Source of the DNA: Rhodopila globiformis
GTDB taxonomy: Bacteria; Pseudomonadota; Alphaproteobacteria; Acetobacterales; Acetobacteraceae
NCBI RefSeq assembly: GCF_002937115.1
Contig: NZ_NHRY01000267.1
Span: 1 to 37,985 of the forward strand
Direction of reading: 5' to 3'
Length of the DNA stretch: 37,985 bases
Program-made: the position numbers and the translations under genes
Part shown: positions 5,010-31,876 of the stretch, piece by piece
How positions within the stretch are numbered: the stretch's first letter is position 1
How the letters are laid out: each line of letters starts with the position of its first letter
The notes under the pieces: generated by a model
The model's input: only the letters and a program-made list of their open reading frames with translations
The model's database searches: none
What the model was told of the DNA's origin: nothing

Positions 5010-6455
5010 TCAGGCCGCCTGCGCCGCGGCTTCGGGTTCGGTCAACGGGAACACCTTGCTGGGGTTCAGCAGCCAGTCCGGATCGAAGGCGGACTTGATG
5101 CGGCGCTGCTGGTCGAGTTCGTGCGCCTGGAACTGCACCGGCATCAGGTCGCGCTTTTCCACGCCGACGCCATGCTCGCCGGTCAGGCAGCCGCCGACTT
5201 CGACGCACAGCTTCAGGATGTCGGCGCCGAAGGTTTCCGCCGCGTGGAAGCTGGCCGGGTCGTTGGCGTCGAACATGATCAGCGGGTGCAGGTTGCCGTC
5301 GCCGGCGTGGAAGATGTTCGCCACCTTCAGGCCGTAGCTGTCGGACATCTCCTGGATCCGCCGCAGCACGTCGGGCAGGCGGCTGGTGGGGATGGTGCCG
5401 TCCATGCACAGGTAGTCGGGGCTGATGCGGCCGACGGCGCCGAACGCGCCCTTGCGGCCTTTCCAGATCGCCAGCGACTCTTCGGCCGACTGCGAGACCT
5501 TCAGGCTGATCGGGTCGAATTTGTTGCAGATTTCGGTGATCTGGCCCAGCAGGCGGTCCTGTTCCTCGACGCAGCCTTCCACCTCGATGATCAGCATCGC
5601 CTCGGCGTCCAGCGGGTAGCCGGCGTGGGCGAAGGCCTCGCAGGCGTGGATGGCGGGACGGTCCATGAATTCCAGCGCCACCGGGATGATGCCGGAGGAA
5701 ATGATGGCGTCGACGCAGGCGCCGGCGATTTCATTCGAGCGGAAGCCGACCAGCATGGCGCGGGCGCCTTCGGGGGAGCGGAGGATGCGGACGGTGACCT
5801 CGGTGATCACGGCAAGCTGGCCCTCGCTGCCGGTCAGCAGGCCGAGCCAGTCGTAGCCGGCGGCGTCGAGGTGATCGCCGCCGATGTCGATGACCTCGCC
5901 GTCGATGGTGACGATCTTCAGGCCGAGCAGGTTGTTGGTTGTGACGCCGTATTTCAAGCAGTGCGCGCCGCCGGAGTTCATGTTGACGTTGCCGCCGATC
6001 ATGCAGGCGAGTTGGGAAGACGGGTCGGGGGCGTAGAAGAAGCCGGCGCCGGCGACGGCATTGGTGATGCCGATGTTCGTCACCCCCGCTTGCACTACCG
6101 CCGTGCGGTCGCCGAAGTTGATGTCCAGGATCTGGTTCATCCGCATCATGCCGACGACCACCGCGTCCTGCATCGGCAGGGCGCCGCCGGACAGCGAGGT
6201 GCCGGCGCCGCGGGGCACGATGCGAACGCCGTTCTCGTGGCAGAAGCGAAGGATTGCGGCGACCTGTTCGGTGGTCTCCGGCAGCACCACGGCGAGCGGC
6301 GGCTGGCGGTAGGCGGACAGGCCGTCGGTTTCGTAGGGCTTGAGCCGGATGGGTTCGGCGATGACGCCGCTTTCGGGCAGCAGGGCGCGCAGGCCTGCGA
6401 CGATACTGTCGCGGCGGGCCATCACATCAGGCTTGGGCGGCGGCTGACGGATCAT
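5010..6455 (-). CDS. glcD: glycolate oxidase subunit GlcD (FAD-linked)
   Basis: A 481-residue catalytic subunit with an FAD-binding PCMH domain: VPRGAGTSLSGG at residues 80-91 and the GGNVNMNSGGAHCLKYG loop near 154-170. The C-terminal FAD-linked oxidase domain contains HAGDGNLHP (383-391) and GEHGVGVEKR (427-436). Length fits the family (about 480-500). ATG 6455 is chosen because AGGAAGGAA lies just upstream; an in-frame extension to 6638 has no family character. It is the first gene of the glc operon. A CAACA-N7-TGTTG dyad (6472-6488) just upstream of the ribosome-binding site could be an operator. D-lactate dehydrogenases share this fold, but the glcE-glcF context supports glycolate. Confidence 0.95.
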   Translation of the reverse strand: MIRQPPPKPDVMARRDSIVAGLRALLPESGVIAEPIRLKPYETDGLSAYRQPPLAVVLPETTEQVAAILRFCHENGVRIVPRGAGTSLSGGALPMQDAVVVGMMRMNQILDINFGDRTAVVQAGVTNIGITNAVAGAGFFYAPDPSSQLACMIGGNVNMNSGGAHCLKYGVTTNNLLGLKIVTIDGEVIDIGGDHLDAAGYDWLGLLTGSEGQLAVITEVTVRILRSPEGARAMLVGFRSNEIAGACVDAIISSGIIPVALEFMDRPAIHACEAFAHAGYPLDAEAMLIIEVEGCVEEQDRLLGQITEICNKFDPISLKVSQSAEESLAIWKGRKGAFGAVGRISPDYLCMDGTIPTSRLPDVLRRIQEMSDSYGLKVANIFHAGDGNLHPLIMFDANDPASFHAAETFGADILKLCVEVGGCLTGEHGVGVEKRDLMPVQFQAHELDQQRRIKSAFDPDWLLNPSKVFPLTEPEAAAQAA

Positions 6456-22810: not shown

Positions 22811-23521
22811 CTACCGCCTTTCACCGGCGGCTGCCCGGGCAGCCAGGGCTCGCGCCCGGGTAACGGGAACGCCGTCCGCCGCCGCCGGATGCGTGGCGAG
22901 GCCGGGCGCGGCCTGCATCAGCAGGTCGCGGAACGCGCGCCACAGCGGCTCGATCCGGTCGTCCGGGACCAGATGGCGGCACAGCGCGCCGTGGCCGAAG
23001 TCGGGGTCGCTGTCCAGGTCGACGAGGCCGACCAGGAAATGCCGGAACGCCGCCAGCGAGGGCTCGTCCCAGTCACGCGCCCGCAGCACCGCGCTGAAGA
23101 TCCGCTCCAGCCCGCCGTCCTCGTAGCTTGGCAGGCTCCTGACACGGGTTTCGGCGCCGGTGCGGCGGATTTCCGCCAGATAGGCCGCGCCGAGCCGCTC
23201 GATCCGCCCCCGCGTCTCCCGGTCCAGGCTCGACAGCGCCAGGACGCGGCGCATGAACTCGCCGTGGTTCAGCTTCTCGCTCGGTTCGGCCACGCCGGGA
23301 TACGGGGACAGGTCATCGCTGTTGCAGCGCCCTTCCCGCAGTTCGGCCAGCAGATGATCGAACGGATGCAGCCGGCAGGCGATTTCCACCGTCTCGCAGA
23401 ACTGTACCGAGAAGTAGTAGCAGGCCTGGGACACCGCCAGCAGTTCGCTGCGGTCGATTTCGGACCACCGGAAATGACAGATCTCGTCGACGATCGTCTG
23501 GTAGCCGGGGTTGGTTGGCAT
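22811..23521 (-). CDS. predicted helical protein under an FNR box
   Basis: A 236-residue, mostly helical protein; I do not recognise a named family. Notable stretches are YYFSVQFCETVEIACRLHPF, NHGEFMRRVLALSS, SLPSYEDGGLERIF and AFRHFLVGLVDLDSDPDFGH followed by GALCRHL. The last combines His, two Asp and a second His, loosely like the metal-binding C-terminal helix of heme-oxygenase-like di-iron enzymes (TenA, CADD). That resemblance is weak inference. ATG 23521 is chosen because upstream frame to 23737 overlaps the regulatory region. A perfect FNR box is centred 64.5 nt before the ATG. An M23-like gene follows. Confidence 0.75.
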   Translation of the reverse strand: MPTNPGYQTIVDEICHFRWSEIDRSELLAVSQACYYFSVQFCETVEIACRLHPFDHLLAELREGRCNSDDLSPYPGVAEPSEKLNHGEFMRRVLALSSLDRETRGRIERLGAAYLAEIRRTGAETRVRSLPSYEDGGLERIFSAVLRARDWDEPSLAAFRHFLVGLVDLDSDPDFGHGALCRHLVPDDRIEPLWRAFRDLLMQAAPGLATHPAAADGVPVTRARALAARAAAGERR

Positions 23522-23578: not shown

Positions 23579-23592
23579 TTGATGCAGATCAA
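23579..23592. promoter_or_regulatory. FNR/Anr box A
   Basis: TTGATGCAGATCAA is a perfect TTGAT-N4-ATCAA palindrome. Its centre is 64.5 nt from the start of the minus-strand gene at 23521, compatible with activation at -41.5. The predicted -10 on that side is poor. The plus-strand gene at 23802 is about 215 nt away, too far for direct class II activation. Confidence 0.75.
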
Positions 23593-24017: not shown

Positions 24018-24430
24018 TCCACACCGCAGCCAGGACGCTGGAGGCCGCGCGCCGCGCGCCGCCTCTTCGTCATGGCGGCGACGCGGGACATGAGCCCGGG
24101 TACAGGCTCCGGGCCGCAATTCATGCTTTGTCTGGTTGGGCGCTGCAGAACGTGGATGCCGGGACTGCGTCTGGCATGACGACAGGGCAACGACCGCGCC
24201 ATCCATCAGGCTGGCACATGTGCAAATTGTCCTATTGGTTCCGTTTTAATAACTATTCCAGGAACATCAGGCAACCGAGACCCCAACCTGAACAGACCAA
24301 ACGCCGGCAGAATTGAAGCCGGCGGCGTGGCTATCCCTCGCTGGCCAACGCATCCGTGTGCCACCATACGCGCCGCGTTCCCAGGTATCACGCGGGCGCG
24401 GCAGCCGCCGCGTCGTCGATGGAGGCGAGG
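24018..24430. other. intergenic region with REP-like fragment
   Basis: No gene is supported. Around 24085-24190 lie segments resembling the intergenic hairpin family (GGGACATGAGCCCGGG, GTGGATGCCGGGACTGCG, GGCATGACGACAGGG). An AT-rich patch at about 24220-24265 is a likely promoter region for the downstream cupin gene. Confidence 0.4.
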
Positions 24431-25003
24431 ATGTGCAGCCAGACCAGTCCCAGTCCACCGCGGCTTGGCCAGTTCATCGCTGCCTTCACCCGCTTGCTCG
24501 ATACGGCGCCGGCCGAGGACGTGATCCTGCAGCGCGGCGGCGCCTTGCTGGCAACCCTGGTGGCGCAGGACGACTGGTTGCCCGAGCCCTTCGCCGCACC
24601 TGATCCGCTGCGCTACCGGCAATACCTGCTGCATTGCGACCGGCAGGAGCGGTTCTGCGTCGTCAGCTTCGTCTGGGGCCCGGGACAGCGGACGCCGGTG
24701 CACAATCACACCGTCTGGGGCCTTGTCGGCATGCTGCGCGGCAAGGAGATCGCCCAGGATTACACCCTGGCGCCCAATGGTCATTTGATCGCAGGCAAGC
24801 GGCACAGGCTGTCGCCGGGCCAGATCACCGCGGTCTCGCCCCGTATCGGCGACATTCACACGGTGGAGAACGCCCTGCCCGACAGCAGTTCGGTCTCGAT
24901 CCACGTCTATGGCGCGAATATCGGCACGCTGCCGCGCACGGCGTTCGACCTGGAGACCGGCGCGCCGAAGACGTTCATCTCGGGCTACGCCGAACCAGCG
25001 TGA
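24431..25003 (+). CDS. cysteine-dioxygenase-like cupin (thiol dioxygenase)
   Basis: A 190-residue cupin of the cysteine dioxygenase type I family. Metal ligands are visible: His91 and His93 in PVHNHTVWG and His143 in GDIHTVEN, the 3-His facial triad of this group. The substrate could be cysteine (to cysteine sulfinate) or 3-mercaptopropionate, and the sequence alone does not decide. ATG 24431 is chosen for the GGAGGCGAGG just before it; ATG 24419 is possible. It is non-overlapping and alone on the plus strand, convergent with the EEP gene whose stop lies 34 bases downstream. Confidence 0.85.
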   Translation: MCSQTSPSPPRLGQFIAAFTRLLDTAPAEDVILQRGGALLATLVAQDDWLPEPFAAPDPLRYRQYLLHCDRQERFCVVSFVWGPGQRTPVHNHTVWGLVGMLRGKEIAQDYTLAPNGHLIAGKRHRLSPGQITAVSPRIGDIHTVENALPDSSSVSIHVYGANIGTLPRTAFDLETGAPKTFISGYAEPA

Positions 25004-27561: not shown

Positions 27562-28221
27562 CTACGCCGGAACCGGCTGCTCCGGGAAGGCCAGTTCGTG
27601 GCGGGACCGCCATTCCGGCCTGACGTAGTTGACGATCAGCGACCGCCGCACCCCGGCAATCGGCCGGCGGCGGAAGCCGTGCCAGGTGTCGGCGCCGGGG
27701 ATGAAGATCAGCCCGCCGTTGCGGACATAGGGCGCCGAGGCGACAAACCCGTCCGGCCCGTCCAGGATGTCCGTGCCCCACGCCTCCGAGCCGGGCTCGC
27801 CGGACAGGTAGACGAGCATGGTATAGAGCTTGGCGCCGATGTCGGTGTGCGGCTCCAGCCAGAAGCCGTCGGTGTCGAGGCAGTACTCGATGCGCAGGAA
27901 ACTGCCGGCCAGCGCCGCGCCGCACAATGCCTCCAGCCGCCGCACGACGGCGTCGCCCTGCAGCGCCGTGGCCAGCGCGTCGCACACCGGATGGGCGGCG
28001 CGCTGCGGCACGCCGAAGAACAGCCGCGTGCTGTTGTTGGTCTCGCGCTTGCCCAGCGTGTCGCCGATGGGCGGAGGCTGCACCGGCAGGGCGTCGATCG
28101 CGGCGCATGCCTCGTCCGGCAGGATGCCGTCGAGCAGCCAGTGGCGATACGGCCAGGTTTCCGCCCGGCAGCGGTCGAGGCAGGCGAGGAACGTGGCGGC
28201 GATCGCGCCGGCGCCGGACAT
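27562..28221 (-). CDS. 2OG-Fe(II) oxygenase, second of a pair
   Basis: A 219-residue protein of the 2-oxoglutarate/Fe(II)-dependent dioxygenase fold. The iron triad is His125 and Asp127 (PHTDIG) and His181 (DTWHGFRRR), with Arg193 as probable 2-oxoglutarate ligand. The family hydroxylates proteins, amino acids or small molecules; the substrate here is unknown. It starts 11 bases after the stop of another oxygenase in the same direction, so they are probably co-transcribed from the FNR-box promoter at 28922. The two proteins are only distantly similar, so they are not a recent duplication. Confidence 0.85.
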   Translation of the reverse strand: MSGAGAIAATFLACLDRCRAETWPYRHWLLDGILPDEACAAIDALPVQPPPIGDTLGKRETNNSTRLFFGVPQRAAHPVCDALATALQGDAVVRRLEALCGAALAGSFLRIEYCLDTDGFWLEPHTDIGAKLYTMLVYLSGEPGSEAWGTDILDGPDGFVASAPYVRNGGLIFIPGADTWHGFRRRPIAGVRRSLIVNYVRPEWRSRHELAFPEQPVPA

Positions 28222-28232
28222 GCAGGCGGCCC

Positions 28233-28865
28233 CTACGCGGTGGCGGCCGGCGCGAGGACGCGCTTGGCGACGGCGGAGACCTTGTGCCGCAGCAGTTCCC
28301 GCCGCGCCGCGAACGTGCTGGCCATCCAGTTGATCATGACGTAGCGGCGTACGCCGACGAACGGCTCATGCCCATGGAACGATTTGCCGGAGCGGCGGAA
28401 GGCGATCAGCGTGCCGGAATCGGGCGGCACCTCGGCGATCATGTCCTGCAAATCGTCCGGCTTGCGCAGCAGCCGCAGCCGCCCGCCGGCGGCTTCCCAG
28501 GAATCGTTGAAATACAGCAGCGCGGTGACCAGCTTGCATTCGCTGTCGGTGTGGATGCGCCCGTCGCGTTCGTGGCAGCGCCCCCGCACGGTGATCATGG
28601 TCGGCCGGCCAACCAGGTCGAGGCCGAATTTTTCCGAGAAGGCCGCGGCCACGGCGTCGCTCTGCAGTTCCTCGATCAGGTCGCCGAAGCGCGGGCCGTA
28701 GTGCGTGGCCTCGACCGGCAGCAGCCCCGGATAGACGATGGCGGGGAAGTCCCGCCGGATCGCCGTGGCGGTTTCGGGTGGAACGAAATCCTTGACCACC
28801 GTGAAGGTGAACGGATCCGTCGTCACCGCCGCGCCGCGCAGCGCCTCGAGGTCGAGTAGCCCCAT
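28233..28865 (-). CDS. 2OG-Fe(II) oxygenase, first of a pair
   Basis: A 210-residue 2OG-Fe(II) dioxygenase-like protein. The iron triad is His105 and Asp107 (RIHTDSECK) and a distal His164 (KSFHGHEPF), followed by Arg173/174 (GVRRYVMINW), the probable 2-oxoglutarate ligand. The pattern around LLYFNDSWEAAGGRLRLL resembles prolyl-hydroxylase-like proteins. ATG 28865 is 63.5 nt from the centre of a perfect FNR box, so it is probably induced at low oxygen, although the enzyme needs oxygen. It may be a high-affinity oxygenase or regulated inversely. Divergent from hemN. Confidence 0.85.
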   Translation of the reverse strand: MGLLDLEALRGAAVTTDPFTFTVVKDFVPPETATAIRRDFPAIVYPGLLPVEATHYGPRFGDLIEELQSDAVAAAFSEKFGLDLVGRPTMITVRGRCHERDGRIHTDSECKLVTALLYFNDSWEAAGGRLRLLRKPDDLQDMIAEVPPDSGTLIAFRRSGKSFHGHEPFVGVRRYVMINWMASTFAARRELLRHKVSAVAKRVLAPAATA

Positions 28866-28921
28866 CGTCTGTCACCTGCTGCCGAAGCGTCGTCGCATAG
28901 TTGCAGACGTCGCTGCTGGAA

Positions 28922-28935
28922 TTGATCCGGATCAA
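28922..28935. promoter_or_regulatory. FNR/Anr box B between divergent genes
   Basis: TTGATCCGGATCAA is a perfect FNR palindrome. It lies 66.5 nt from the hemN ATG (28995) and 63.5 nt from the oxygenase ATG (28865). A -10-like CATCTA sits about 22 bases past the box toward hemN, and CAACTAT at about 19-25 bases toward the oxygenase. One box could therefore serve both directions. Confidence 0.85.
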
Positions 28936-28994
28936 GGACGCGGCGGGACAGGCTCGCCATCTAATGCCCGACGTCGGAAACAGAAGTGGCAGCC

Positions 28995-30344
28995 ATGACG
29001 GATAGCGCGATCAAGAAGTACCTGAACGAGCGGATTCCGCGCTACACCAGCTATCCCACCGCGCCGCATTTCTCGGCCGCCGTCGGGCCGCAGGCCTATG
29101 AAGGCTGGCTGCGGGCGGTGCCGGAGGACGCGCGGCTGTCGCTCTATCTGCACGTGCCATTCTGCGAGACGCTGTGCTGGTACTGCGGCTGCCACACCAG
29201 CATCACCCGCCACCGCGGGCCGATCGAGAAGTATGTCGGGCTGCTGCTGCGCGAGGTTGACCATGTCGCCGACGTCATCGGCGGCCACCGCGCGGCGCAT
29301 ATCCATTTCGGCGGCGGCACGCCCGCGATCGTCGGGCCCGAGCTGTTCGGCAGCATCATGACCCGCCTGCGGCAGCGCTTCGACTTCGAGCCGGACGCCG
29401 AGGTGGCGATCGAGATCGATCCCCGCCGGCTGACGCCGGAGATGGCGGACGCGCTCGGCCGCAACGGCGTGACCCGCGCCAGCCTGGGCGTGCAGACCTT
29501 CGATCCGGCGGTGCAGGAAGCCGTGGCGCGGGTGCAGAGCCTGGAAACGACGCAGGCCTGCGCAAAGCTGCTGCGCGGGGCCGGCATCAAGGACCTGAAC
29601 GTCGACCTGCTCTACGGCCTGATCCATGAGACGGTGGAGTCCTGCATGGACACCGTGGCCGGCGCGCTGTCGCTCAGCCCGGCCCGGCTGGCGGTGTTCG
29701 GCTACGCCCACGTGCCCGGCATGATGAAGCACCAGAAGGTGCTGGACGAGTCCGCCCTGCCGACGTCGGACGCGCGGCTGACGCAGGAGCGGGCGATTGG
29801 CGACGCCATGTTGCAGGCTGGCTACCAGCGCATCGGCCTGGATCACTACGCGCGGCCGGACGACCCGATGGCGGTGGCGCAGCGGACCGGTCAGTTGCGG
29901 CGCAACTTCCAGGGCTACACAGACGATCCGGCCGACGCGCTGATCGGCATGGGCGCCTCGTCGATCGGCCAGTTGCCGCAGGGCTACGTGCAGAACGCGC
30001 ACCACATCAAAGACTGGGGCGACCGGATCGAGGCCGGGCAACTGGCCACCGTCCGCGGCGTGGCGTTCACGCCCGAGGACGTGCTGCGCAGCGACATCAT
30101 CGAGCGGCTGATGTGCGACCTGAAGGTGGACGTGCCGGCAGCGATCCGGCAGCACGGCTTCAATCCGCACTGCCTGGACAACGAGATGGCCAACCTGCGG
30201 ACGCTGGTCGCCGACGGCCTGGCCGAGGTGGACGGCGGGGTGATCACGGTGCCCGAATCGACGCGCAACCTGGTGCGCCGGGTGGCCAGCGTGTTCGACG
30301 CCTACCTGGACCCGGCCGCCGGCCGGCACGCCGTCGCCGTCTGA
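28995..30344 (+). CDS. hemN: oxygen-independent coproporphyrinogen III dehydrogenase
   Basis: A 449-residue radical SAM enzyme that converts coproporphyrinogen III to protoporphyrinogen IX without oxygen in heme (and bacteriochlorophyll) synthesis. The 4Fe-4S motif is FCETLCWYCGC (Cys57, 61, 64), with SYLHVPFC context, the GGGTP element (HIHFGGGTPAI) and the HemN-type C-terminal winged-helix region. The N-terminal MTDSAIKKYLNERIPRYTSY, with YTSYPTA near residue 17-23, is typical of true HemN rather than HemW. ATG 28995 is chosen over GTG 28986. The FNR box upstream matches the usual anaerobic control of hemN. Confidence 0.96.
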   Translation: MTDSAIKKYLNERIPRYTSYPTAPHFSAAVGPQAYEGWLRAVPEDARLSLYLHVPFCETLCWYCGCHTSITRHRGPIEKYVGLLLREVDHVADVIGGHRAAHIHFGGGTPAIVGPELFGSIMTRLRQRFDFEPDAEVAIEIDPRRLTPEMADALGRNGVTRASLGVQTFDPAVQEAVARVQSLETTQACAKLLRGAGIKDLNVDLLYGLIHETVESCMDTVAGALSLSPARLAVFGYAHVPGMMKHQKVLDESALPTSDARLTQERAIGDAMLQAGYQRIGLDHYARPDDPMAVAQRTGQLRRNFQGYTDDPADALIGMGASSIGQLPQGYVQNAHHIKDWGDRIEAGQLATVRGVAFTPEDVLRSDIIERLMCDLKVDVPAAIRQHGFNPHCLDNEMANLRTLVADGLAEVDGGVITVPESTRNLVRRVASVFDAYLDPAAGRHAVAV

Positions 30345-30865: not shown

Positions 30866-31288
30866 CTACATGATCTCCCAGAAGCCGGTTTCCTCGTCGA
30901 GCCGGGCCACTTCCAGCCCCTGGAAGTCATAGCGGGAAATGATCCCGACGATCCGGCCGTCATCGACCACCGGCAGGTGGCGGTAGCCGCCGTCCTGCAT
31001 CATGCGCAGGGCGTCGATCGCGTGGCCATTCGGCCGCAGCGTGTCGGGCCGCGGCGTCATGACACTGCCAAGCAACGTCGTGGCCGGGTCCAGCGCCTCG
31101 GCGGCGACGCGGCAGACGGCGTCGCGGCCGGTGAACAGGCCGATCAGGGTGCCCTCCGGCCCGGTGACGAGGATCGCGCCGATGCGCTTGTCGCGCATCA
31201 GGCGACAGGCGGCCTGCACCGTCGCGGTGTCCGGCAGCGTGACCGGATGCTGACGCTTAACGATCTCGCCCAGGCTTCTGTTGGTCAT
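30866..31288 (-). CDS. CBS-domain pair protein, second of two
   Basis: A 140-residue protein that is essentially two CBS domains. They bind adenosyl nucleotides and sense energy or regulate partners. First CBS: TVQAACRLMRDKRIGAILVT to LFTGRD; second: DTLRPNGHAIDALRMMQDGG to VGIISRYDF. ATG 31288 (MTNRSLGEIV) follows a perfect AGGAGG, so it is preferred over the in-frame ATG at 31405. It follows the other CBS gene by 49 bases in the same direction and probably shares its FNR-box promoter. Small stand-alone CBS proteins are common in oxygen-responsive loci; the partner is unknown. Confidence 0.88.
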   Translation of the reverse strand: MTNRSLGEIVKRQHPVTLPDTATVQAACRLMRDKRIGAILVTGPEGTLIGLFTGRDAVCRVAAEALDPATTLLGSVMTPRPDTLRPNGHAIDALRMMQDGGYRHLPVVDDGRIVGIISRYDFQGLEVARLDEETGFWEIM

Positions 31289-31337
31289 AACAAAGCCTCC
31301 TGGCCCGCTTGGGCCGCACGGGGTTGGGCCCCGGCTG

Positions 31338-31808
31338 CTACACCAGCATGCCGGGTGCCTTGGAAATGGCAGCCACCACGTCGCCGCGGCTGACGATGCC
31401 GACAACCTTGCCGTCCTGCAACACGGGAACCCGCTTGACGCCGTGCTTGACCATCAGCTCCGCGATGTCCGGCAGAGCCGTGCCGGGCTCCACGCTGATG
31501 ACGTGGCGCACCATGACGTCGGCGGCAGTGCGGGTGTCCTGGCGGATGTACTCCAGGAAATCATGCGGCAGTTGCTCGCCTTCCGCGAACACGCCCAGCC
31601 ACCAGTCACGGCGCGCCCGGGCCGATTCACGGAACGGTTTCAGGATGTCGCCTTCGCTGACAAGCCCGGCGAGCGTGCTGTCGGCCTGGCAGACCGGAAC
31701 GGCGCTGATATGCTTGCTGGCGAGCAACGCGGCGATTTCAGCCATGCTCGTCTGCGGTGACACGGCGACGACCGGCGAAGTCATGATATCAGCCGCGGTG
31801 ATGGACAT
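31338..31808 (-). CDS. CBS-domain pair protein with FNR box
   Basis: A 156-residue protein with two CBS domains: MSITAADIMTSPVVAVSPQT to LVSEGDIL, and VMVRHVISVEPGTALPDIAE to VGIVSRGDVVAA. Between them is a charged linker (RARRDWWLGVFAEGEQLPHD). AGGAGG precedes ATG 31808. A perfect FNR box is centred 61.5 nt upstream and a CAAGAT-type -10 lies about 23 bases past it, so oxygen-limited induction is likely. CBS pairs like this are often linked to fermentative or microaerobic metabolism; no enzymatic domain is present. Confidence 0.9.
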   Translation of the reverse strand: MSITAADIMTSPVVAVSPQTSMAEIAALLASKHISAVPVCQADSTLAGLVSEGDILKPFRESARARRDWWLGVFAEGEQLPHDFLEYIRQDTRTAADVMVRHVISVEPGTALPDIAELMVKHGVKRVPVLQDGKVVGIVSRGDVVAAISKAPGMLV

Positions 31809-31862: not shown

Positions 31863-31876
31863 TTGATTAGAATCAA
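31863..31876. promoter_or_regulatory. FNR/Anr box C before the CBS genes
   Basis: TTGATTAGAATCAA is a perfect FNR palindrome. Its centre is 61.5 nt upstream of the CBS gene start at 31808, and the stretch after it contains GCAAGATGC, a possible -10 at the expected spacing. It is the only obvious promoter for the pair of CBS genes. Confidence 0.85.

Follow-up and report, generated by a model that had tools for sequence, protein, structure and literature searches.

A FixK/FNR-type box shared by hemN and a divergent pair of 2-oxoglutarate-Fe(II) oxygenases in Rhodopila globiformis and related Alphaproteobacteria

The hemN–ox1–ox2 locus

In Rhodopila globiformis, the gene for the oxygen-independent coproporphyrinogen III oxidase (hemN) is transcribed divergently from two tandem genes, here called ox1 and ox2, which encode 2-oxoglutarate (2OG)-Fe(II) oxygenases. 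The genes lie in a stretch of 37,985 nucleotides (nt) of contig NZ_NHRY01000267.1 (hereafter the window, meaning the whole stretch of DNA that was analyzed), and between them is a single palindrome of the FixK/FNR type (Table 1). The arrangement had been noticed in an initial annotation made from this sequence alone. It is real, conserved, and broader than that annotation could see.

The box is a perfect TTGAT-N4-ATCAA palindrome, the form expected in class II promoters of the FNR/FixK type, and its centre is common to both divergent promoters. The distances first reported from this perfect site, 66.5 nt from the centre to the hemN ATG and 63.5 nt to the ox1 ATG, were confirmed. Such sites are found above chance. 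The window contains 16 sites with at most two mismatches, three of them perfect, against 4.42 (standard deviation, sd, 2.19) in shuffled sequences, and the whole genome (7.25 Mb) contains 17 perfect sites and none of a reversed control pattern. The 14-mer is unchanged in the Rhodopila relatives (loci L118–L121).

Table 1. Genes and promoter elements of the divergent locus, in window coordinates
Feature	Position	Strand	Remarks
hemN, oxygen-independent coproporphyrinogen III oxidase	28995..30344	+	TIGR00538
FixK/FNR-type box TTGATCCGGATCAA	28922..28935	.	14-mer, centre 28928.5; centre common to both divergent promoters
-10-like hexamer for hemN, TCTAAT	28960..28965	+	5 of 6 positions against TATAAT; 34 nt from box centre
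-10-like position for ox1-ox2, TATGCG	28894..28899	-	32 nt from box centre
ox1, 2OG-Fe(II) oxygenase, PHD/P4H-like fold	28233..28865	-	PF13640, E 7.5e-10
ox2, second 2OG-Fe(II) oxygenase	27562..28221	-	structure model matches 2OG oxygenases

The hemN product scores 415.5 bits against the TIGR00538 equivalog (cut-off 324.95), and it is the sole one of three HemN matches in the genome to exceed the cut-off; one HemF is encoded in the same genome. An in-frame GTG at 28986 lies ahead of the hemN ATG.

The reading of ox1 and ox2 as two 2OG-Fe(II) oxygenases proved right, for ox1 by its PF13640 match and for ox2 by the match of its structure model; a search of ox2 against Pfam and NCBIfam at 1e-3 gave no match. 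The predicted models (predicted local distance difference test scores of 90.7 for ox1 and 90.0 for ox2) give both proteins the double-stranded beta-helix and HxD...H motif of the superfamily. The residues of the iron triad, H105, D107, and H164 in ox1 (alignment of 36 rows) and H125, D127, and H181 in ox2 (38 rows), are invariant. Among fold matches, PasI and PolD are at the top for ox1, followed by PHD2, while the ox2 model matches Tpa1, PolD, PasI, OGFOD1, and PHD2. In sequence profile comparisons with solved chains, PolD (E 2.4e-15) and PasI (E 5e-13) are closest to ox1, the Pseudomonas prolyl 4-hydroxylase (P4H) being matched as well, and the best match of ox2 is PolD (E 6.1e-5). The two proteins are probably paralogous 2OG-Fe(II) hydroxylases of the PHD/Ofd1 fold, presumably active as catalysts, and their likeness to prolyl hydroxylases is one of fold only.

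Distribution of the box among related loci

Of the 200 family genomes searched with ox1, 129 have a relative (E <= 0.001), in many cases a paralogue without ox2. Those of ox2 occur in 124 of 397 family genomes (E <= 1e-20) and in 39 of 385 genomes sampled from the class (E <= 1e-15). The loci compared here are the best 80 of 549 ox2 relatives from a scan of genome contigs, and a box was counted when a site with at most one mismatch lay no more than 300 nt upstream of the first gene. Thirty-eight of these loci have the order ox1-ox2; L129 and L183, with too short an upstream sequence, were left out, and 36 are assessable.

A box precedes 31 of the 36 assessable ox1-ox2 units. For 17 of the 31, loci of Acidocella and Beijerinckiaceae among them, the surrounding 3.5 kb revealed no hemN. 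Where hemN adjoins the pair or ox2, the box is found in all 16 cases, six co-directional and ten divergent. In three of the co-directional loci (L188, L189, L193), hemN, ox1, and ox2 follow one another behind a single box. The background is much lower: 57 of 3200 random 300-nt windows, 4 of 299 upstream regions of other long open reading frames (ORFs) rich in GC at third codon positions, and 0 of 14 ox1-like genes without ox2 (13 clean ones, since L032 has hemN before ox1). The box is also scarce where the gene order differs. It was found in 2 of 17 loci in which only ox2 was found and in 1 of 25 with the reverse order ox2-ox1, mostly from Azospirillum. The single boxed case has hemN downstream, and the ox2-ox1 loci without hemN, from Azospirillum and its relatives, are unboxed in 24 of 24. 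Judged by this distribution, the box is evidently the oxygenases' own and not just that of hemN, because 31 of 36 units are boxed, 17 of them without hemN, against 4 of 299 other ORF upstream regions.

The sister clade and other neighbourhoods

A sister pair, ox1'-ox2', is more distant from that of the window (31-35% identity for ox1' and 41-49% for ox2' in five loci). Twenty-six loci of this clade were considered, 25 hand-picked among the matches of 41-49% identity (others exist) and one plasmid; L241, at a contig end, was excluded, and L232 was not counted because it and L246, at 54,248 bases each, are apparently one plasmid. The box is present in 25 of 25 assessable loci within the family. 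Genes for ubiquinone synthesis (ubi) lie within the examined stretch in five of 25 loci. In three of them (L102, L235, L251), ox1'-ox2' and ubiT-ubiU-ubiV diverge across one box, in the same design as hemN, box, and ox1-ox2. In these three and in L093, the pair is accompanied by a Rid/FkbO-Hyg5-like gene, with ubiT-ubiU-ubiV nearby, and in L133 an ox2 of the first clade stands ahead of ubiT-ubiU-ubiV.

The sister pair is also found on plasmids. The Acidiphilium multivorum plasmid pACMV3 (L232) carries the pair with Rid and U32 (UbiU/UbiV-like) genes and pdxST, and the A. cryptum plasmid pACRY03 (L233) carries a Rid gene and ox1'-ox2'. An ox2 relative was seen in a plasmid record of Acidithiobacillus ferrooxidans, one of three plasmid records matched.

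These counts bear on one alternative, that the box serves hemN only and that ox1-ox2 lie next to it by chance, with a promoter of their own elsewhere. The match of the window to a -10 element on the ox1 side is weak, as this alternative would have it, and hemN is described as a known FnrN/FixK target in the relevant part of PMC4999443. Nevertheless, the 17 loci in which ox1 retains its box and no adjacent hemN was found, Acidocella and Beijerinckiaceae among them, and the boxed sister clade make this alternative very improbable.

Outside the family, a box precedes ox1-ox2 in L265 and L266, and L263 reads box, ox1, ox2, hemN, followed by a gene of the CRP/FNR family. The row in L265 consists of ompW, a CRP/FNR-family gene, the box, ox1-ox2, and then genes for proteins that, judged by eye, resemble cbb3 oxidase subunits and CcoG.

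In Azospirillum, the pair lies in the order ox2-ox1, without a box, and is flanked by an ELM1 gene and by one that resembles the gene for thioredoxin reductase (trxB). By eye, ELM1-like, ox2, and thioredoxin-reductase-like genes were also seen in L161 (5840-9545), L258, and L259, together with carB, and with greA in L161 and L259. An ox2 relative is present in small genomes of low GC content (1.2-1.6 Mb, GC about 0.3; SAR11-like in size and GC only), in L258 and L259 beside the ELM1-like gene. In three of the four loci of this kind, no box was found within 300 nt. In the fourth, L261 (30% GC), a site with one mismatch stands about 190 nt ahead of the ox2 relative (positions 5010 and 5205), which may be due to chance in DNA so rich in AT. 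A reading of the pair as enzymes of hypoxia only was ruled out by the unboxed ox2-ox1 of the ELM1-trxB row in Azospirillum and its relatives and by the ox2 relatives of the small genomes. Because the pair exists unboxed in Azospirillum, its chemistry is not bound to hypoxia as such, and control by low oxygen seems to have been gained or lost in particular lineages.

Promoter architecture

In class II promoters, the box is centred near -41.5 and the -10 element lies about 32 nt from the box centre. The position of the -10 element was sought by averaging the matches to TATAAT at each of 42 offsets from the box centre; the sequences are related and the sd is a guide only. In 25 of the 27 loci with the box directly before ox1, the distance from the box centre to the start of the ox1 match is 61.5-79.5 nt, the other two being L190 (135.5 nt) and L194 (119.5 nt). 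With these two left out and the window added (26 sequences), the best offset is 32 nt, with a mean of 2.65 of 6 matches against an all-offset mean of 1.23 (sd 0.53); the runner-up is 2.46 at 30 nt. On the hemN side, the ten divergent loci, four of the six co-directional ones, and the window (15 sequences) give a best offset of 33 nt, with 2.27 of 6 matches against an all-offset mean of 1.09 (sd 0.45). In the sister clade the best offset is also 33 (25 sequences), some boxes being farther from the start. The offsets of 32 and 33 nt on the two sides of the locus agree with the class II spacing.

The initial annotation had placed -10-like hexamers on both sides of the box. They are present, with changes in the exact reading: for hemN, TCTAAT is a better choice than the CATCTA it overlaps, and on the ox1 side, where CAACTAT had been chosen, the conserved offset points to the overlapping TATGCG, at a position that is itself conserved. 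The proposal that one box drives both directions is well supported, at the level of sequence comparison, by conservation of the box with and without hemN, by its spacing, and by the -10 position.

The candidate regulator and other boxes in the genome

FNR had been proposed as the regulator. It is probably FixK instead, because fixL, fixJ, and fixK are present in the genome and no canonical four-cysteine FNR is found among the matches inspected; the box is labelled here as FixK/FNR-type. The three fix genes are adjacent on contig C29, as expected of a FixLJ-FixK cascade. FixJ exceeds its family cut-off (NF006900, 303.6 against 255), while FixL (NF041777, 629 against 850) and FixK (NF050806, 237 against 300) fall below theirs, yet these are the best families for the two proteins. 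The best FixK-like protein of the CRP/FNR family (L076) is the one beside fixJ and fixL. A canonical FNR with four N-terminal cysteines was not recognized by eye among ten PF13545 proteins over the cut-off, although others could escape this search, nor among the five matches to a GoxR-like FNR query, all on contigs with earlier matches. One protein, L085, has an SCQTC (CxxC) stretch near its start and scores low against Fnr (61.7 bits, where the cut-off is 228).

Other perfect boxes of the genome lie 61.5 nt before nirK, 67.5 nt before ubiT-ubiU, and before the Rid/FkbO-Hyg5-like gene that heads a second oxygenase pair (L093, contig C232). Some have no obvious target at such a distance, for example L002 and L009.

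The window itself contains two further perfect boxes. One of them, TTGATGCAGATCAA (23579-23592), lies 64.5 nt before a gene at 22811-23521, the 236-aa product of which gave no Pfam, NCBIfam, or PDB match and might, by eye, be a helical heme-oxygenase-like protein. The other (31863-31876) lies 61.5 nt before a CBS-domain gene at 31338-31808, with a second CBS gene (30866-31405) after it. The two genes, cbsB-cbsA, recur beside hemN in L118, L120, and L125-L127, with a one-mismatch box before cbsB. Near the boxes, at 24356-25003, there is also a gene for a protein of the oxygen-using cysteine-dioxygenase type (PF05995, 25.6 bits against a cut-off of 23); no perfect box stands directly upstream of it.

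A probable bidirectional low-oxygen promoter

The explanation that we consider likely is a bidirectional low-oxygen promoter, in which FixK-type class II activation of hemN and ox1-ox2 is combined with dose compensation of the hydroxylases. A single FixK/FNR-type dimer would bind the box at about -41.5 to -43.5 and act in class II fashion in both directions. At low oxygen it would activate hemN rightward and ox1-ox2 leftward, most likely by way of the FixL-FixJ-FixK cascade of the genome. HemN would sustain heme synthesis without oxygen. As oxygen, the co-substrate of the hydroxylases, runs short, their dose would rise, and an otherwise ordinary hydroxylation, of a protein or a small molecule, could in this way go on under microoxic conditions. 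The regulatory part of this explanation is well supported by the comparisons above.

At first sight, the activation of oxygen-consuming enzymes at low oxygen is a paradox. It is milder than had been claimed, because low-oxygen regulons do include oxygen-using enzymes. For instance, ccoNOQP is activated by FnrL in Rhodobacter (PMC2908626, in its account of FnrL), and the FixJ section of PMC4999443 gives a FixJ site for SMc03253, an L-proline 3-hydroxylase, and reports that its regulation was demonstrated by experiment. The paradox would vanish altogether if the box activated hemN and repressed ox1-ox2 at low oxygen, and such repression has a parallel in the cox genes of Rhodobacter, described as repressed by FnrL in the same account (PMC2908626). 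Opposite control would be hard to achieve where hemN, ox1, and ox2 are co-directional behind one box (L188, L189, L193). In addition, the box centre and the -10 position on the ox1 side fit the activating class II geometry, from which we infer activation rather than repression; the repressing alternative is improbable.

Several observations weigh against the bidirectional promoter with dose compensation. Five ox1-ox2 loci lack the box (L137, L146, L147, L149, L195), as do L271, a sister-clade locus, and L276, an ox1-ox2 locus, both from outside the family. In the window, TATGCG is a weak element (3 of 6 against TATAAT), its position being kept in the relatives, and among these the spacing on the hemN side is less regular. 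The loci are also akin to one another. A rapidly built tree from 92 rows of ox2 requires at least eight changes of box state and at least seven of hemN state, and the independent pairs on it were too few for a sign test of the joint occurrence of hemN and box. Nor is ox2 universal, as the count of family genomes above makes clear, and within the genus a relative is absent in 3 of the 13 genomes listed, that of the window included among the 13. In five family genomes (L104-L108), hemN and ox2 occur together, without ox1. A box with at most one mismatch is missing there within 300 nt of hemN, and the closest one upstream stands at a distance of about 0.9-1.7 kb in four of the genomes and of about 2.9 kb in the fifth, L107. 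Box and hemN are separated by an OmpW gene in L104, where the gene for a GoxR-like FNR, which has a CX2CX7C stretch, is transcribed away from the boxes. Finally, dose compensation is a rationale and not a result, and Azospirillum manages without it.

Possible roles of the oxygenase pair

What the pair would hydroxylate can be approached from its relatives and its neighbours. A role in tetrapyrrole modification, which the initial annotation had suggested among others, is not favoured, since the pair persists without hemN and its partners change, the ubiquinone genes of the sister clade being one example. More generally, the pair might make or modify a small molecule needed at low oxygen, such as a quinone or tetrapyrrole derivative. 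PolD and PasI, as the closest solved relatives of ox1, are in keeping with this idea, as are the Rid/FkbO-Hyg5-like protein of the sister clade and its five loci of 25 with ubi genes. On the other hand, the neighbours vary by lineage (hemN, ubiTUV, ELM1/trxB, ompW) and indicate no single pathway, and an oxygen-requiring step within an oxygen-independent route would be odd. This is a possible, if doubtful, reading.

HemN and UbiU/UbiV are oxygen-labile Fe-S enzymes. Ox1 and ox2 could be PHD/Ofd1-type hydroxylases that act on proteins and sense oxygen; after induction in hypoxia they would, on the return of oxygen, modify such Fe-S enzymes or their regulator and so switch them off or protect them. 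The presence of PHD2 and Tpa1/OGFOD1 among the best fold matches speaks for such a role, and so does the pairing with hemN or ubiTUV, both of oxygen-independent routes, across or behind one box; in L263, ox1-ox2-hemN and a CRP/FNR-family gene stand in one row. However, ox1 is closest in sequence to PolD, an enzyme of the polyoxin pathway, and to PasI, which has a small-molecule ligand in 9ei7 according to the title of that structure. Moreover, the ox2 relatives of Azospirillum and of some of the small low-GC genomes have ELM1/trxB as their surroundings and mostly lack a box at the gene. We regard sensing as unlikely. Its fullest form is a bacterial counterpart of the PHD/Ofd1 sensing hydroxylases, co-induced through one box with HemN or UbiU/UbiV as a post-translational reset or guard for the time when oxygen returns. 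The mirrored hemN/box/ox1-ox2 and ubiTUV/box/ox1'-ox2' of two clades, the second also on plasmids, have the look expected of such a module, and yet we would give this form slightly less credence still.

Relation to known systems and significance

The mammalian PHD2 is itself induced by hypoxia. With PHD2/EGLN1, Tpa1/OGFOD1, and the Pseudomonas P4H of EF-Tu, the models of ox1 and ox2 have the fold and the iron triad in common. The identity is 12-21% in the fold alignments listed, and ox1 and ox2 are two separate proteins, each with an intact triad. PolD of Streptomyces cacaoi and PasI of Photorhabdus asymbiotica, the closest to ox1 in both sequence and fold, differ from the pair in being enzymes of small-molecule pathways (for PasI, judged by its ligand) and in their genomic setting. 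The hydroxylase SMc03253 of Sinorhizobium meliloti, which we take to be a 2OG enzyme, resembles ox1 and ox2 in standing under a low-oxygen regulator, a likeness drawn from its description only (PMC4999443). It differs in having a FixJ site, and its description in the FixJ section of that paper includes neither hemN nor a shared box.

The hemN regulons controlled by FnrL or FixK have the same TTGAT-N4-ATCAA box, with hemN, ompW, and cco among the targets in the parts of PMC2908626 and PMC4999443 that treat them. Unlike in those regulons, a 2OG oxygenase pair shares the box here and faces hemN. No word beginning with "oxygenase" occurs in the main text of either paper ("dioxygenase" being outside this count), and no paper linking such oxygenases to FNR/FixK and hemN was found in the literature searched, mostly that available without subscription.

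Through this locus, two uncharacterised 2OG oxygenases that many Alphaproteobacteria possess are linked with the low-oxygen programme. The wiring appears twice, with oxygen-independent heme synthesis and, in the sister clade, with oxygen-independent ubiquinone synthesis. It opens the question of PHD-like oxygen-sensing hydroxylases within the FNR/FixK regulon, and it offers a direct route to asking which hydroxylations bacteria protect when oxygen is short.

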